From: Candidatus Woesearchaeota archaeon CG_4_10_14_0_2_um_filter_33_13
GTDB lineage: Archaea; Nanobdellota; Nanobdellia; Woesearchaeales; GW2011-AR9
NCBI GenBank assembly: GCA_002792115.1
Contig: PFNQ01000012.1
Location: forward strand, 304-41,490
DNA length: 41,187 nt
Reading direction: 5' to 3'
Part shown: piece by piece, positions 1,720-8,474 of the stretch
Numbering within the stretch: position 1 is the first letter of the stretch
How the letters are laid out: each line of letters starts with the position of its first letter
Position numbers and translations under genes: made by a program
The notes under the pieces: model-generated
Seen by the model: only the letters and a program-made list of their open reading frames with translations
The model's database searches: none
What the model was told of the DNA's origin: nothing

Positions 1720-2676
1720 TTACTCTTCTAACAAAGCAGTATGTGGAATAAATTTACGTAACAAAGTATTGCCACAATCAATTACTTTATACCTTTGGAT
1801 TGGAAACTCTGTCCTTAAATCCTTGAGTACATCTTTTTTACAACCTATTTCTTGTTCAACCTCAATCAAAAGATCATAATCACCAATAAACCTGGTTAAA
1901 GCCACAATGTTAGGATGAATAAAGGCAAAATGAAGTAATTTTTTATCTTGGTCTAAAGGTAAATCGCTAGAACTAATCAAAATATGCTTCTTTTTTATGT
2001 TTAAAATCCCAATATCAAAATTTGCAGTATACCCTCGAATAACTTTACGCTCTTCTAAATTCTTTTTAATTTTGACAATTGTTTTTGGATTTAAACCTGT
2101 TTTTTTATGAATATCAATAACTCTCTGTTCAGAATTTTCCCAGAAAGCAGATAACACCTGACGATCCGTATTATTTAATTCTTCTAAGTCTCTATCTCCA
2201 AAAACCACTATCTCTGAATGCGGTTTCTTAAGTGCTAAGTATTTTCTGGGGTATATGTGTTTGGCAACAATCGGATAAACTTCCGCTAATTTTAAAGAAC
2301 TTTTAAACTGTTGTAAAAAATCCCTAACTTGTTTGTTGTAATAAGAAAGGTTTGGAACACTAAACATTACCGCTAAATCATACCCTTGCTCAAGCTCCTC
2401 AACCATTACTACAGAATCAATAGATTTTAATTCATTAATTATTTCTTTCTTCTTTGAAAAATTTAAGTAATTAAAATAGACGTACACCTGTAGATAACCA
2501 AATTTTGCCGAATCTAAGATTACAGAAGGGCTTAGAATCACTTTTTTATCATGTAAATTCTTGATCAGATAGCTAGCTGCCTGCTGACTAACTTTTAACT
2601 TTTTACCTAATTCCTTTGTGGAGATACGAGAGTTCTGGGTTAACTCATAGATCAAATTTTTAGTTTTAGTTGTCAT
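1720..2676 (-). CDS. Fused double Lrp/AsnC-family transcriptional regulator
   Basis: Two consecutive HTH + RAM-like halves (NSRISTKELGKKLKVSQQAASYLIKNL; DRQVLSAFWENSEQRVIDIHKKTGLNPKTIVKIKKNLEERKVIRGYTANFD). Confidence 0.82.
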   Translation of the reverse strand: MTTKTKNLIYELTQNSRISTKELGKKLKVSQQAASYLIKNLHDKKVILSPSVILDSAKFGYLQVYVYFNYLNFSKKKEIINELKSIDSVVMVEELEQGYDLAVMFSVPNLSYYNKQVRDFLQQFKSSLKLAEVYPIVAKHIYPRKYLALKKPHSEIVVFGDRDLEELNNTDRQVLSAFWENSEQRVIDIHKKTGLNPKTIVKIKKNLEERKVIRGYTANFDIGILNIKKKHILISSSDLPLDQDKKLLHFAFIHPNIVALTRFIGDYDLLIEVEQEIGCKKDVLKDLRTEFPIQRYKVIDCGNTLLRKFIPHTALLEE

Positions 2677-2756: not shown

Positions 2757-2819
2757 CGCCTCGTGACTATCGAGGGCGAGCGTAGTCTTGACTTTAAAGA
2801 AGTAACATACTCAAGACTA
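2757..2819 (+). promoter_or_regulatory. Two inverted repeats between a TATA-like element and the start of the GCS2-type gene
   Basis: CGCCTCG (2757-2763)/CGAGGGCG (2771-2778, one bulge) and perfect 9-bp TAGTCTTGA (2783-2791)/TCAAGACTA (2811-2819); TATA-like TTTCTTATAATA about 2742-2752; ATG at 2828. Confidence 0.5.
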
Positions 2820-2827
2820 GATTTACA

Positions 2828-4051
2828 ATGAAATCAAAGATAGGATTAGAAATAGAATTAGAATTGATGAATTCTGATGGCAAGGTAGAAAACGTTGCTA
2901 CTAATGTACTAACAGACCCACGAAATGATGGTTCTTGGGTTGCAGAAACTAGATTTTGTCAAGTAGAAGTAAACTCTAGAGCATCTTCTTCAATCAGAGA
3001 TTTAGAAGCGGAAGTAATAAGGCAATTATTAATATTAGAAGAAGTCTGTGCAGATCATGGGGTTGTTCCAATTGCAGCTAGCGAATTCGGAGCGGGACAA
3101 GGAAGAAGTAATGTAGTAAAACCGCGAGAAGTGATCTATCAACGAGTATTAGGTTCAACCCTTGCTGAAGCCTTAAATTCTATTTCAGGAGTACACGCCC
3201 ATATAGATCAAATGGAAGTTAATAAAACAGGACAGTACAACCTCTTGCTCGCACTTGATCCCCTCTCATACGCAACAACCTCAACCTCACCAATATTGTT
3301 TGACGGAACTAATGGATTAAATTGTCATAGAGTTAATTTAGTGCGAAATGTTGTTTATAGAAATTTCCCATCACACGGAGAACTTCCAGAATATCTAACG
3401 GATGATGCACAAGAAATAATTAGACAAAGAAAAAGATTTGATGATTGGTTAAAGGTATCAGGACTAAGTGAAGAGGAATTCGCCAAACTATTTACGTTAG
3501 ACAATACGGGGTATTCTCCAATAAGAAGAAGAGATGGAATCGGGAAAAACGGCACATGGGAAGTTAGAACATTTGATAGTGCTCCTTTGGATATAATATT
3601 AGGAATAGTGGCTTTATACAAAGGGATCTATGACCATGCAGCAGAAACTGGATTTAATGTAGAAATAAGTAATAGACCAGGAGAATACCGGTTTGAAGAA
3701 GGAAGAATAATTTTACCTCATTTTTCAACTTTAAAAGATATGGAAAGGAAAGCAATAAGATTTGGAATGAAAGACCAACAAGTTGTTGACTATCTTAGAG
3801 CCATATTACCTTTTGCAGAAACTGGTCTCGAGGAAGGAGACAGAAAGTATTTAGACCCAGTCAAAGAGAGTTTAGTCACCACAGACAATCCTGCAGACAG
3901 AGTAATGCAATATTTAAGGAGCTTGGGCTTAGAAGGAGAAAAATTTACTCCTGAACAAACTGCCCTGGCTAATTTATTCCTCAGAAAAGAATATTTATCC
4001 GCAATCAGAAAATCTTCAGAAAATGGAACCACACAACGCCTGGTCGCTTGA
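2828..4051 (+). CDS. Glutamate-cysteine ligase-like protein (GCS2 family, YbdK/EgtA-like)
   Basis: GLEIELELM, GVHAHIDQM (GxHxHxx) and WEVRTFDSAP motifs of the GCS2 carboxylate-amine ligase fold. Confidence 0.78.
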   Translation: MKSKIGLEIELELMNSDGKVENVATNVLTDPRNDGSWVAETRFCQVEVNSRASSSIRDLEAEVIRQLLILEEVCADHGVVPIAASEFGAGQGRSNVVKPREVIYQRVLGSTLAEALNSISGVHAHIDQMEVNKTGQYNLLLALDPLSYATTSTSPILFDGTNGLNCHRVNLVRNVVYRNFPSHGELPEYLTDDAQEIIRQRKRFDDWLKVSGLSEEEFAKLFTLDNTGYSPIRRRDGIGKNGTWEVRTFDSAPLDIILGIVALYKGIYDHAAETGFNVEISNRPGEYRFEEGRIILPHFSTLKDMERKAIRFGMKDQQVVDYLRAILPFAETGLEEGDRKYLDPVKESLVTTDNPADRVMQYLRSLGLEGEKFTPEQTALANLFLRKEYLSAIRKSSENGTTQRLVA

Positions 4052-5042
4052 TTACCATCTTAGAACTGATTTTGACTTTTCAAAACTCTCTGGGTTAAAT
4101 GCGAGTATATTAGTTGCACAAGCACTATCGATGGGTATTAGCGTTGAAGTATTAGAAGAAAAGTTTCTGTCTTTAAGGAGAGGAGATAAAGAAGTGTTGT
4201 TTCGAGATGCTGACAATACCACCCTATCTTACCTTGCCGCAACAATTGTTAGGGATAAGAGATTAACAAGATTATTTTTAGAAAGAGGACAAGTTCCTGT
4301 ACCCAAAGGCAAGGCTTTTAGTCCACAAGACACTGAAGGGATTCAGAGGTTTGTTGCTGAGATTGGTAGTGTAGTCATAAAACCTGCAGACGGAGAGTGT
4401 GGGCAGAACGTCTATTGTGGGGTTACGAGCGACAACATAAATGGTGTTTTGAGTGATGTCCAGAGGCAAAAATCTCCCCAAATTGTTGAAGAGTTTGTGC
4501 AAGGACAGGAGTATAGAATTTTTGCGACTGTTCGCGGGGATATAAGCGTAATCTTAAGGCGCCCAGCGAGTGTTTTAGGTGACGATAAGAAAACGATTGC
4601 GGATTTAGTAGAGGAAAAGAACGAAGATCGTCAAGAAAAAGGGGAGTTCCCCATAACTAGCCCATATAGTAAAATAAAGATTGATGATGTTGTCAGGTTT
4701 AATCTAGCGAGTCAAGGATTTGGTGTTGATTATGTGCCAAAACATGGAGAAAGAACATATCTCAGATCAAACTCTAACTTAAGCACTGGCGGAGACTCCA
4801 TTGCTATTGAAATGGAAGAAATCGACTTACCAGTTAGGGATGTAGTTCAAAAAATATTTTTGGCAATTCCCGGGTTAAGTTATGCGGGGATAGACTTAAT
4901 AACCCCAGACATTAAACATAGTGGACCATTTTGGATAATAGAAATAAATGAAGATCCCGGGCTGAGAGGGATGGCCTTTCCGTATCAAGGAAAAGCATAT
5001 AATCCAGCTAAAGCACTTTTAGATCTGGCGTTTGAAGGATAA
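4023..5042 (+). CDS. ATP-grasp ligase similar to the C-terminal ligase of GshF / cyanophycin synthetase
   Basis: VVIKPADGECGQNV, IVEEFVQGQEYRIFATVRGDISVILRRPASVLGDDKKTIADLVEEKNEDR, GIDLITPD...IIEINEDPGLRGMAFP; overlaps the upstream gene by 29 bp. Confidence 0.82.
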   Translation: MEPHNAWSLDYHLRTDFDFSKLSGLNASILVAQALSMGISVEVLEEKFLSLRRGDKEVLFRDADNTTLSYLAATIVRDKRLTRLFLERGQVPVPKGKAFSPQDTEGIQRFVAEIGSVVIKPADGECGQNVYCGVTSDNINGVLSDVQRQKSPQIVEEFVQGQEYRIFATVRGDISVILRRPASVLGDDKKTIADLVEEKNEDRQEKGEFPITSPYSKIKIDDVVRFNLASQGFGVDYVPKHGERTYLRSNSNLSTGGDSIAIEMEEIDLPVRDVVQKIFLAIPGLSYAGIDLITPDIKHSGPFWIIEINEDPGLRGMAFPYQGKAYNPAKALLDLAFEG

Positions 5043-5047
5043 CCAAG

Positions 5048-5776
5048 ATGTGTAGGATGTTATTAGCGATAGGCGAGTTTAATATTTCTAAAATAATTGA
5101 TAGTTTTTTGTTGATGGCAAACGACCAGAATGAAACCCATGAACGACATTTAATTTTTGAGAAAGGCACATTCAAACACAAAGATGGGTGGGGTGCTGCT
5201 TATTTAGATGAAACAGAGAATTGGAGAATGATAAGGTCAATCTTGCCAATATTTGAAGATAAAAGAATAATTGAATTAAAAGATATTAAAACCAACTTAT
5301 TGATCTTACATGCCAGAAAAGCAAGTCAAGGAAAAATAGCTGTAGATAATTGCCACCCATTTAAGTTTAAAGAATGGGTTTTTTGTCATAATGGGGGGAT
5401 CAATGAAACAATAAAATTCAATGACGATTACAAACCTAAAGGGGATACAGACTCAGAAAGATTATTTTACTCTTTATTGACAGACATTAATAAAAATCCT
5501 CAGATAGATAAGACAGTAAGAACAAATATAGCCAAGTATAAAGAAAACCCAGAAGCTAATATTGTCTTAGCAAACAAGAATTACTCTTATGTATATCTAA
5601 ACAAAAACGATAAAATAAATTACTACCAAATGAAATTTCTAAAAGAAAAAAACCAGTTGATTATTTCTTCAGAAGTTCTCCTAGGAATAGGAATCAATTG
5701 GAAAAAACTAAAACAAGAAGACTTTGTAACAGTTGACAACAAAACGTTAGAGATTAATATTAATTCAAACGGATAA
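5048..5776 (+). CDS. Class II glutamine amidotransferase (EgtC/Dug3/YafJ-like)
   Basis: N-terminal MCRMLLAIGE with Cys2 as putative Ntn nucleophile; HKDGWGAAYLDE, LHARKAS, NCHPFKFKEWVFCHNGGI, GDTDSERLFYSLL. Confidence 0.87.
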   Translation: MCRMLLAIGEFNISKIIDSFLLMANDQNETHERHLIFEKGTFKHKDGWGAAYLDETENWRMIRSILPIFEDKRIIELKDIKTNLLILHARKASQGKIAVDNCHPFKFKEWVFCHNGGINETIKFNDDYKPKGDTDSERLFYSLLTDINKNPQIDKTVRTNIAKYKENPEANIVLANKNYSYVYLNKNDKINYYQMKFLKEKNQLIISSEVLLGIGINWKKLKQEDFVTVDNKTLEININSNG

Positions 5777-5785
5777 AGTTAAGGT

Positions 5786-6910
5786 CTATTCAACATCAAA
5801 CCCTTTAGCCACCAAAATTCTTCTAACAGAATCATCAATCTGTTCCTCAGGTATCTCTCCTTCTTCAACAGCGGTCTTAATCACTAAGACCATATGATAA
5901 ATCTCGTTTGGATCTTCATTAAAATTAAGAACCAGATCATTTCCCGCCTTAAACACATCAACATATAACTCATCTAAAGTAGGATAAAAGTTCTTCAATC
6001 CTAACATGTTGATTTCATCACTGATAACTAAACCAGAAAATTCTTTCTTTAAGGGCATAATTAAATTCGGAGAAACTACTGAAGGAATCCCACCAGAATC
6101 CACCACTCCCGTAGTTATAATATGACTTACCATTACAGAATCAACTTCATCCTTACCCAATAGATAAGTATATGGATAAATATCCTCTGAACTAATCTGG
6201 GCAGAAACAATGTTTTTATGTGGATCTTTAATAACCAAGGTTTTGCCAGGATAATGTTTAGCCGTGGCAATTATCCCTTTACTTTGTAATCCTAAGATAT
6301 ACGCTTCTGCTAACTCTGCGACTTCCTTTTCATCTCCTGTAAAACTACGACAACCCCAAATCTGATCATCTAAATCTACAACCGGAGCAAAATTAATATC
6401 AAATCCTAATTCATGTAATAGTTTTCCATCAATACTACCTTTTTCAAAAGCCTGACCAATACCATCAATATCTTTAACAGTAGTGGCATTAATAAAATTA
6501 GCAAATGGATTCAAACATCCCTCATAATCAACAGTTATGAAAAAGGGGATTTGTAACCCGGATTGAAGTTGAGATATTGTGTCACTATAAGATCCCTCAC
6601 TATCCATAGCAAAAAGATGTGCCCCACCAATCTGCATATCCTTAAATGCCTGCATATTATACAAACCACCATGAACAACTACCATTTGAGCAATCTTTTG
6701 TTCTAAGGTCATAGAATCAAGTTTAATGGTATTATCAATAATCTCTAATTGTGGTTGTTCTGGAATTAACCACCCGCTTGCTTTTGCAACATTTAGAGTG
6801 CCTAAAACCAATAGGACTATAATTAAAATTAAAAAAGTTCTTTCGTGAATGGTCCACTTTTTACTCTCTCTTCTCTTTTTTATCTTTTTACTCCTCATCT
6901 TACCACACAC
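5786..6910 (-). CDS. Glycoside hydrolase family 3 N-terminal domain protein (NagZ-like), membrane-anchored
   Basis: N-terminal TM segment; LDSMTLEQKIAQMVVV, FAPVVDLD, ATAKHYPGKTLVIKDPHKN, GLVISDEINMLGL. Confidence 0.82.
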   Translation of the reverse strand: MCGKMRSKKIKKRRESKKWTIHERTFLILIIVLLVLGTLNVAKASGWLIPEQPQLEIIDNTIKLDSMTLEQKIAQMVVVHGGLYNMQAFKDMQIGGAHLFAMDSEGSYSDTISQLQSGLQIPFFITVDYEGCLNPFANFINATTVKDIDGIGQAFEKGSIDGKLLHELGFDINFAPVVDLDDQIWGCRSFTGDEKEVAELAEAYILGLQSKGIIATAKHYPGKTLVIKDPHKNIVSAQISSEDIYPYTYLLGKDEVDSVMVSHIITTGVVDSGGIPSVVSPNLIMPLKKEFSGLVISDEINMLGLKNFYPTLDELYVDVFKAGNDLVLNFNEDPNEIYHMVLVIKTAVEEGEIPEEQIDDSVRRILVAKGFDVE

Positions 6911-7235
6911 TCAATTTATTACAATAGTTGTAAGCTTTGCTGTCTAGCCAATAACTTAGCTCACCAGTTTGACAACGCCATTGAACTGTCTTGTCCATGT
7001 AATAACCTTGTTCTTTAACACAAGTAAGTTGTTTTCTTGCTTCCAAACAACAAGAATCAATATCTGTCCAGGAATTATAATTATCTCTCCAATTAACTAC
7101 ACAAAGCATCTCTTCTTTATCAACAATACTCATCCCCGTGGTAGGAACTTTAACTTCAAACAACGTCAAAATTAAAATGATACAAATAATAAACAAAGAA
7201 ACGTTAGCAATAATTAAAACATTCTTATTAGTCAT
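6900..7235 (-). CDS. Small membrane-anchored cysteine-containing extracytoplasmic protein
   Basis: Internal ATG of the 207-aa ORF gives MTNKNVLIIANVSLFIICIILILTLFEVKV... then a six-Cys segment; 11-bp overlap with the downstream GH3 gene. Confidence 0.6.
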   Translation of the reverse strand: MTNKNVLIIANVSLFIICIILILTLFEVKVPTTGMSIVDKEEMLCVVNWRDNYNSWTDIDSCCLEARKQLTCVKEQGYYMDKTVQWRCQTGELSYWLDSKAYNYCNKLSVW

Positions 7236-7319
7236 AATAAATAAAATAAACAAAAATTTATATATAAAAGTATCCCTTAATACTACATAATATCTCTTAA
7301 ATTGTGAAGGTGAATAACT

Positions 7320-7556
7320 ATGGAAGTACAAATTTATACAACGCCAGTTTGTCCTTGGTGTAAAAAAGTTAAAGATTGGCTCAAGAAAAAGAAGGTTTCG
7401 TTCATTGAACATGACGTTTCTGAAAGCGATAAAGCTCGAGATGATATGATCGAGAAGTCCGGTCAGATGGCTGTACCGGTCATTGACATCGATGGAAAAA
7501 TTATTGTTGGTTTTAATGAACAAAAACTAGAAGACGCTTTGAAAAAGTCAAAATAA
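7320..7556 (+). CDS. Glutaredoxin-like protein
   Basis: YTTPVCPWCKKVKDWL (CPWC active site), AVPVIDIDGKIIVGF. Confidence 0.92.
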   Translation: MEVQIYTTPVCPWCKKVKDWLKKKKVSFIEHDVSESDKARDDMIEKSGQMAVPVIDIDGKIIVGFNEQKLEDALKKSK

Positions 7557-8474
7557 AGGCAACTGTTTGCCTTCTCTTTTTCTATAACAATACATAATAT
7601 AGTCCATTTTATTCTTAGGGGAGTGCTCACTGCCAAAAGTAAAACTCCCTCCAGGAAACGGTACTTCGGCAAGTAGATTAGTTGTTGTTTGAGCAGAGCC
7701 TAAAGATTGCCATGCCGCTTCTAGCCTAGTTCTACTCAATCTTACTTCCCAATATTCTTTAAGCTCAGTAGCAAATTCAGCGTATCTCGCAGGGTAGAAT
7801 TCCATGATGTCAAAAAGTATAACTCCCAACAAAGAACCGCCAACCGGATCACGGAAATCGCCGTTCTGCCAACGGTCAACAAATTTCTTTGCAGTTGATA
7901 ATCCCAAAAAGTAGTCCAATCGATAAGTAAACTCCAAAGCAGTAGCCATAAATAATTCTCCCCGTTCACTACAAAAAAAGTCATGCCAATATTGGGGATT
8001 ATTTCTTTGATCAGTTGTTGCATAAGCCGCCTTCATTACAGACCCCCTTACATTTTGCCAAGAAAGATTTCTATCTCGGTAAGAGTTAGACTCTAAAAGC
8101 CCCCAAATTGTTTCTCTGGCCCCAGGAAAATCATACTGACCACACAAACTCAATGTTCCACAAAGAGTTTTCATCTTTTGCTTTTCCTTCTCTTCTACAA
8201 AAGGAATTTCAGGGTAAAAATTTTTTAGAATACCAGTTAATCCTTCTCCCAAGCGAAGATGAACATCCTGGTTAAAATCTCGCGTTGATTCTAACAAGTC
8301 AGCTAAAGAGTCAACGACAACAAAATCTCTAACAGCGTGTAACTGACGTTCTACTCTCCTTGCTGAAGAAAAAATGGTTGGCCCATTTTCTTTTTTTAGG
8401 GCACTATACAAGTAGTCATATAATTTTTTGGTGCTCCAACCTAGAATTTGATCAAATGGTTTCTGTTTTCTCAT
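7548..8474 (-). CDS. Hypothetical protein
   Basis: 308-aa ORF with normal composition and no recognised domain; converges with the glutaredoxin-like gene. Confidence 0.65.
   Translation of the reverse strand: MRKQKPFDQILGWSTKKLYDYLYSALKKENGPTIFSSARRVERQLHAVRDFVVVDSLADLLESTRDFNQDVHLRLGEGLTGILKNFYPEIPFVEEKEKQKMKTLCGTLSLCGQYDFPGARETIWGLLESNSYRDRNLSWQNVRGSVMKAAYATTDQRNNPQYWHDFFCSERGELFMATALEFTYRLDYFLGLSTAKKFVDRWQNGDFRDPVGGSLLGVILFDIMEFYPARYAEFATELKEYWEVRLSRTRLEAAWQSLGSAQTTTNLLAEVPFPGGSFTFGSEHSPKNKMDYIMYCYRKREGKQLPLF

Follow-up and report, generated by a model that had tools for sequence, protein, structure and literature searches.

The three genes at positions 2828 to 5776 of the window (the whole stretch of 41,187 nucleotides analyzed here, G000:C26:304-41490, which comes from a genome of 1.33 Mb that is 92% complete) are all intact and encoded on the + strand. 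Gene 1 (2828..4051, 407 aa) codes for a predicted carboxylate-amine (gamma-glutamyl) ligase of the GCS2 superfamily, gene 2 (4023..5042, 339 aa) for a predicted stand-alone ATP-grasp ligase of the clade that includes the GshF C-terminal domain and CphA, and gene 3 (5048..5776, 242 aa) for a predicted stand-alone hydrolase with the class II glutamine-amidotransferase (Ntn) fold of the EgtC/YafJ/Dug3 type. As described in an earlier sequence-only reading, the respective ORFs (ORF1 to ORF3) are co-directional, with a 29-bp overlap between ORF1 and ORF2 (4023-4051) and a 5-bp gap between ORF2 and ORF3; they form one apparent transcription unit. The ATG codon of gene 2 at position 4023 is backed by a homolog in genome G044 (44% identity), which has a colinear start and matches from residue 2. 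All three family assignments made in the sequence-only reading were borne out by profile searches and, for genes 1 and 3, by predicted folds, and the catalytic motifs that were to be sought in these proteins are present. The genomes used for comparison (designated by G-numbers, with G000 being the window genome, and their loci by L-numbers) are draft MAGs, with a family sample of 49. A taxonomic scan with an alignment of six gene 1 sequences retrieved five loci, all of them from Woesearchaeota, Nanoarchaeota, or unclassified archaea; the nearest named relatives in that scan were “Candidatus Woesearchaeota” MAGs (SI-series isolates), one Nanoarchaeota MAG obtained from a marine glass biofilm, and one unclassified archaeon.

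The gene 1 product scores 24.7 bits against the Pfam GCS2 profile (PF04107; cut-off, 21), and five further homologs that were scanned are all above that cut-off. Its motifs G6LEIE10, G121VH123AH125, R233, and T243WE245VR247 are invariant columns in an alignment of 21 relatives. When compared with known structures, the profile of these 21 relatives matched YbdK (1r8g/1tt4) at E=1.3e-9 and the plant glutamate-cysteine ligase (GCL) at 1e-6 to 2e-5, with the ExE, HxH, and R..TxExR motifs brought into register. The AlphaFold2 model (pLDDT 75, pTM 0.81) best matched YbdK, plant GCL, GshF, and the E. coli-type GshA in a structure search, whereas its matches to glutamine synthetase and to PafA/Dop were far weaker. 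The profile score, the glutamine-synthetase-like fold, and the three motifs place the protein in the GCS2 superfamily, of which it is predicted to be a divergent gamma-glutamyl ligase. YbdK is its best match by both structure and profile, but the two proteins share just 14% identity and the YbdK equivalog models miss gene 1 at their cut-offs; among the curated equivalog models, none came near its cut-off, with the best carboxylate-amine ligase model, PRK13515, giving 31 bits versus the 371 required.

The sequence-only reading had also offered a peptide-tag ligase cycle; in a cycle of the Pup type, a ligase and a deconjugase would respectively attach and remove a protein tag. The glutamine-synthetase-like fold does include PafA and Dop, to which gene 1 shows weak matches (E about 2e-3), but its matches to YbdK and GCL are better by 4 to 5 orders of magnitude, no Pup-like gene was noticed in the locus among the ORFs of 80 aa or more, and the fold of gene 3 is that of a small-molecule Ntn amidohydrolase. 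Such a cycle finds no support in these comparisons and is scarcely credible.

The gene 2 product hits the CphA (TIGR02068, 2e-52) and GshAB (NF002688, 4e-52) profiles almost equally well, followed by the N-acetylglutaminylglutamine-type profile TIGR03103 (1e-39). Its best match in the PDB is the GshAB protein from Pasteurella (3ln7, 7.6e-33), the alignment with the streptococcal GshAB begins at residue 6, and the GshF synthetase domain is matched across nearly the full length of the protein. The motifs are mixed, being GshF-like in NSNLSTGGDSI and FPYxGK and CphA-like in EIN..PGLR. Homologs encoded on bacterial plasmids are all less than 60% identical to gene 2 (about 29 to 34% for the top 15); almost all of them carry a GshAB or CphA annotation. 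These similarities point to a stand-alone ATP-grasp ligase of the GshF/CphA type. Among the compared genomes, the homolog in G044 adjoins genes for an alanine-dehydrogenase-like protein and a YheC/D-type ATP-grasp; the only others, more distant, are found in G051, G239, G286 (32%), and G321 (28%), and those with ∼32% identity are located in a different, radical-SAM-like cassette.

The gene 3 product matches the GATase_4 (3.9e-22) and EgtC (TIGR03442, 1.8e-16) profiles, and its own profile retrieves the YafJ-like protein 1te5 from the PDB at 1.2e-17. Residues Cys2, Arg90 (in H88AR90), H114-N115-G116, and Asp135 are invariant in an alignment of 20 relatives. The AlphaFold2 model (pLDDT 84.9, pTM 0.87) is closest to EgtC (4zfk/4zfj; E=1.4e-15, TM 0.76 to 0.81), with YafJ-like 1te5 and GlmS behind, and, as in EgtC, YafJ, and Dug3, no acceptor domain follows the hydrolase fold. 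The presence of the Cys nucleophile, the substrate Arg, the Asn-Gly oxyanion pair, and the Asp assigns gene 3 to the EgtC/YafJ/Dug3 class II amidohydrolases (GATase_4), so that it can be predicted to be an EgtC/YafJ-type hydrolase with the class II amidotransferase fold, acting presumably on gamma-glutamyl amides. It is also encoded in 13 genomes that lack gene 1, where it may act alone.

With EgtC as the closest structure, one could take gene 1 for EgtA and gene 3 for EgtC of an ergothioneine-type protecting-group pathway, particularly as the pairing of GCS2 and EgtC proteins is known from egtABCDE clusters (PMC7278568). However, the EgtD family (PF10017) was not found in the window genome (92% complete) and is present in just 7 of the 49 family genomes, nor does the locus carry an EgtB-like gene; because EgtD was not found, this pathway is considered very improbable.

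Upstream of the operon lie two potential regulatory features. A perfect 9-bp inverted repeat, TAGTCTTGA-N19-TCAAGACTA (2783..2819, with no strand assigned), immediately precedes the start of ORF1 and represents a possible operator; among the 173 fetched loci, it is found only in those that contain the window's own sequence. The other candidate regulator is the product of a divergently oriented gene (1720..2676, - strand), a double Lrp/AsnC-type protein in which two stretches match HTH_24 (1.4e-10) and which was not found at the corresponding place in other GCS2 loci. RNA-based regulation of the operon was rejected, since an Rfam search of the window gave no match and the predicted RNA fold at the repeat is ordinary, i.e., not unusually stable (z=-0.37).

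Gene 1 is present in 20 and gene 3 in 32 of the 49 family genomes. In 18 of the 20 gene 1-carrying genomes, the two genes share a locus; the exceptions are G038, where gene 3 lies on a separate contig, and G033, where it was not detected. Gene 3 accompanies gene 1 in 19 of 20 genomes and occurs in 13 of the 29 genomes without gene 1 (Fisher p = 2.4e-4, a value calculated with the genomes counted as independent and therefore somewhat inflated in significance by their kinship). Conservation of the triad in relatives, a check proposed in the sequence-only reading, does not hold for the three genes as such: the pair of GCS2-like ligase and GATase is conserved, whereas a GshF-type gene beside genes 1 and 3 was seen in the window genome only. 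The genomic site of the pair is usually fixed, with genes for Cbf5, a metallophosphoesterase, and ribosomal protein S3Ae on one flank and, on the opposite flank, genes for GH3, a small protein, glutaredoxin, and a glycerol-3-phosphate dehydrogenase. The operon lies in a variable island, because the flanking frame exists without any operon gene in some genomes (loci L158 and L162). Gene 1 distances track the S3Ae tree (r=0.78), and no coupling of gene 3 with gene 1 distances beyond that of S3Ae was detected (partial r=-0.19), so that co-evolution of the two genes past species divergence was rejected and the link within the pair rests on co-location rather than on correlated rates.

Two neighbors proved uninformative about the function of the operon. 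The intact glutaredoxin gene of the window (7320..7556, + strand; 78 aa, CPWC) has counterparts in 48 of the 49 family genomes and occupies the same spot where GATase and GCS2 genes are absent; it belongs to the conserved flanking frame, i.e., to housekeeping synteny, is not operon specific, and was rejected as evidence of a thiol function. The DUF3335/C39 neighbor encoded in relatives' loci was likewise rejected as an active cysteine peptidase, as its catalytic Cys is replaced by Thr in 11 of 14 cases; the window genome lacks this neighbor.

The distribution of gene 3 brings up the explanation that it forms the core of a salvage system degrading gamma-glutamyl peptides imported from a host, with the ligases being separate later additions. 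Many genomes without gene 1 have gene 3 next to S3Ae, and symbiotic lifestyles are usual among DPANN archaea. Weighing against salvage are the significant association between the presence of genes 1 and 3, the 29-bp and 5-bp spacing within what appears to be a single transcription unit of the window, and the fact that no peptide transporter was seen near the operon, all of which make this explanation improbable.

While genes 1 and 3 stay, the ligase between or beside them varies. ATP-grasp genes of six types were found near or next to gene 1 in 8 of the 20 genomes that carry it, against a chance level, among a handful of neighbors, of perhaps 1 genome in 20 by a rough estimate. In addition to the GshF-type gene of the window, these include a GshB-type ligase in the G018 island (GSH-S_ATP, 1e-30); a circularly permuted, glutathionylspermidine-synthase-like ATP-grasp in the islands of G006, G010 (GSP_synth, 1.3e-6), and G045 (CP_ATPgrasp_2, 0.005); a Ddl-like ligase in the G038 locus; and, with weak matches (E about 1e-3), a pre-ATP-grasp ligase in G022 and a GAK/MptN-like ATP-grasp in G040. 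The glutathionylspermidine-synthase-like family was detected in 4 of 96 genomes, and all four carry gene 1. This variation suggests that what is conserved is a make-and-break pair, to which second ligases of different kinds can be added. A two-step pathway would not be universal, because 12 of the 20 gene 1 loci show no nearby ATP-grasp.

On balance, the operon probably represents a unit for making and breaking a gamma-glutamyl peptide, with gene 2 adding the third unit. The “make-extend-hydrolyse” sequence proposed from the DNA alone fits these data and has precedents in the logic of egtA/egtC and of glutathione and Dug3. In actinobacteria, EgtA forms gamma-Glu-Cys and the Glu is later removed by EgtC, so that gamma-Glu serves as a temporary handle (PMC7278568); Dug2/Dug3 cleaves glutathione and gamma-Glu dipeptides (PMC7617739). 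The direction of the reactions, their substrates, the order of the steps, and the product that we infer are as follows. Gene 1 would use ATP to activate the gamma-carboxylate of Glu as gamma-glutamyl phosphate and join it to an amino compound X, yielding gamma-Glu-X. Gene 2 would then activate the free carboxylate of gamma-Glu-X and attach a third unit, as the GshF C-terminal domain does, and the N-terminal-cysteine hydrolase encoded by gene 3 could take off the gamma-glutamyl group for turnover or for unmasking of the finished product. The small gamma-glutamyl peptide made and recycled in this way is perhaps glutathione-like, a tripeptide of this kind being the most economical product, and a thiol is plausible.

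In one specific form of the make-and-break explanation, the operon would yield glutathione itself or gamma-Glu-Cys: genes 1 and 2 would be a split GshF, and gene 3 would handle Dug3-like glutathione turnover as a cysteine and glutamate reserve. The order of ligase and synthetase genes parallels the domain order of GshF, and some methanogens carry a GshA-like gene syntenic to a GshF-type GshB-like gene (PMC7278568). Three of the exchangeable ligases come from glutathione-linked families (GshF, GshB, and GSP_synth), and a glutathione-like product is favored because such families recur in the middle slot. However, gene 1 is remote from every curated glutamate-cysteine ligase model, Cys ligation is not the rule among GCS2 folds, gene 2 scores equally well with CphA, and the neighboring glutaredoxin is background synteny, so that glutathione or gamma-Glu-Cys as such appears rather unlikely. 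About equally doubtful is a non-thiol gamma-glutamyl or D-amino-acid peptide serving in storage, as an osmolyte, in the envelope, or in signaling, with a modular island whose products differ by genome. In favor of such a peptide is the gene content of sister islands, which includes Asp/Glu racemase, M55 D-aminopeptidase, and GAK/MptN-like ATP-grasp (G023, G040, and G004), glutamate racemase, Ddl-like ligase, and class I GATase (G009), and beta-aspartyl peptidase with the pre-ATP-grasp ligase (G022); alanine-dehydrogenase-like genes are found in G003 and G044. Nevertheless, the island of the window genome carries none of these sister-island genes, and a shared genomic hot spot need not imply one pathway.

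Across this family of Woesearchaeota, the fixed-site ligase/hydrolase pair, the six types of swapped second ligases, and the occasional racemases raise the tentative idea that relatives make different, previously undescribed gamma-glutamyl peptides. If so, closely related symbionts would differ in the small gamma-glutamyl peptide that they make. With unrelated enzymes replacing the second ligase, the locus provides a natural set of comparisons by which to ask what product selection acts on and whether chemistry like that of glutathione was put together from parts more than once. To our knowledge, hardly any low-molecular-weight thiol or gamma-glutamyl peptide is known from DPANN archaea. The pair has been kept by part of the lineage in genomes of ∼1.2 Mb that are otherwise much reduced, which suggests that its product is worth the cost.

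Searches of the open-access literature turned up no description of a locus of this kind from DPANN archaea or of one with a hydrolase, although related GCS2/GATase neighborhoods may be mentioned in a broad survey of amidoligases (Iyer et al., 2009). Several known systems share parts of the arrangement. The ATP-grasp ligase of N-acetylglutaminylglutamine amide (NAGGN) synthesis belongs to the same clade as gene 2 (TIGR03103, 1e-39) and has a class II GATase partner; unlike that system, gene 3 lacks an asparagine-synthetase domain, gene 2 lacks a GNAT domain, and the GCS2 ligase is extra. The actinobacterial egtABCDE likewise clusters the genes for a GCS2-fold gamma-glutamyl ligase and a class II Ntn gamma-glutamyl hydrolase, but here the genome is without EgtD, the locus without EgtB and EgtE, and an ATP-grasp ligase sits between the outer genes. 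The yeast Dug2/Dug3 system of glutathione degradation shares the GATase_4-type subunit that cleaves gamma-Glu bonds (PMC7617739), whereas the operon lacks the Dug2 (M20) subunit; the one clear M20 family protein encoded elsewhere in the genome is a candidate partner at most. GshF (GshAB) has the same order of gamma-glutamyl ligase and ATP-grasp, but the operon consists of two overlapping genes, its first part is GCS2-like rather than of the proteobacterial GshA type, the C-terminal PGLR of gene 2 is CphA-like, and a hydrolase is added. A 2020 review, using InterPro, did not find the GshB and GshF families in archaea and noted the pairs of GshA-like and GshF-type GshB-like genes in methanogens (PMC7278568). 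These pairs are also archaeal and likewise combine a syntenic gamma-glutamyl ligase gene with one for a stand-alone ATP-grasp of the GshF type, although the methanogen ligase is related to the N-terminal domain of GshF, whereas the ligase described here is GCS2-like, comes from a DPANN lineage, and is accompanied by an EgtC-like hydrolase. A split-GshF-like arrangement is known from methanogens, while its DPANN setting and the added hydrolase are apparently new.

Genes 1 (the GCS2-like ligase) and 3 (the EgtC/YafJ-type GATase) are repeatedly neighboured by a DUF3335/Peptidase C39-like protein, encoded at positions 3954-4559 of locus L024 and aligned with 13 homologs (alignment A5). Since a Thr residue occupies the position of the catalytic Cys in 11 of these 14 sequences, the protein may not act as a peptidase. 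No such protein was found in the genome that carries the window.

In the island of genome G009, genes for a Ddl-like ATP-grasp protein, glutamate racemase, class I GATase, C39-like protein, and EgtC-like GATase follow one another (L114:4596-8470). In G061, the C39-like gene is grouped with a pre-ATP-grasp ligase homolog and a pair of amidohydrolase-like genes, all adjacent (L166:4000-7404). The islands of G023, G040, and G004 (L116:2247-5483, L037:2-5020, and L169:3768-7123) each combine an Asp/Glu racemase, whose top NCBIfam match in L116 is the cysteate racemase CuyB, with an M55 D-aminopeptidase and an unrecognised ATP-grasp-like protein of 330-340 aa. Two alanine-dehydrogenase-like genes flank the GCS2/GATase pair in G003 (L026:5321-10948); in G044, such a gene is followed by a homolog of gene 2, the GshF/CphA-type ATP-grasp. 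Distant gene-2 homologs from three genomes of other families belong to a separate conserved cassette (L113:4731-8938, L149:5818-9723, and L150:127-3767), which also encodes one radical-SAM-like protein, one methyltransferase-like protein, and a third of 310-360 aa.

Downstream of the operon, the window encodes an intact 78-aa glutaredoxin (7320-7556, +), overlapped by an opposite-strand, TTG-started ORF call (6900-7523) that is probably spurious, and a 308-aa protein (7548-8474, -) that gave no match in the Pfam scan and had no counterpart in the other loci compared.

In sister families within the taxonomic order, a GCS2-like paralog of 445-460 aa adjoins a gene of the N-formylglutamate amidohydrolase family (L042, L044, L045, L046, L047, and L049; PF05013 was assigned by a scan of the L044 member). 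This is a second pairing of a ligase with an amidohydrolase.
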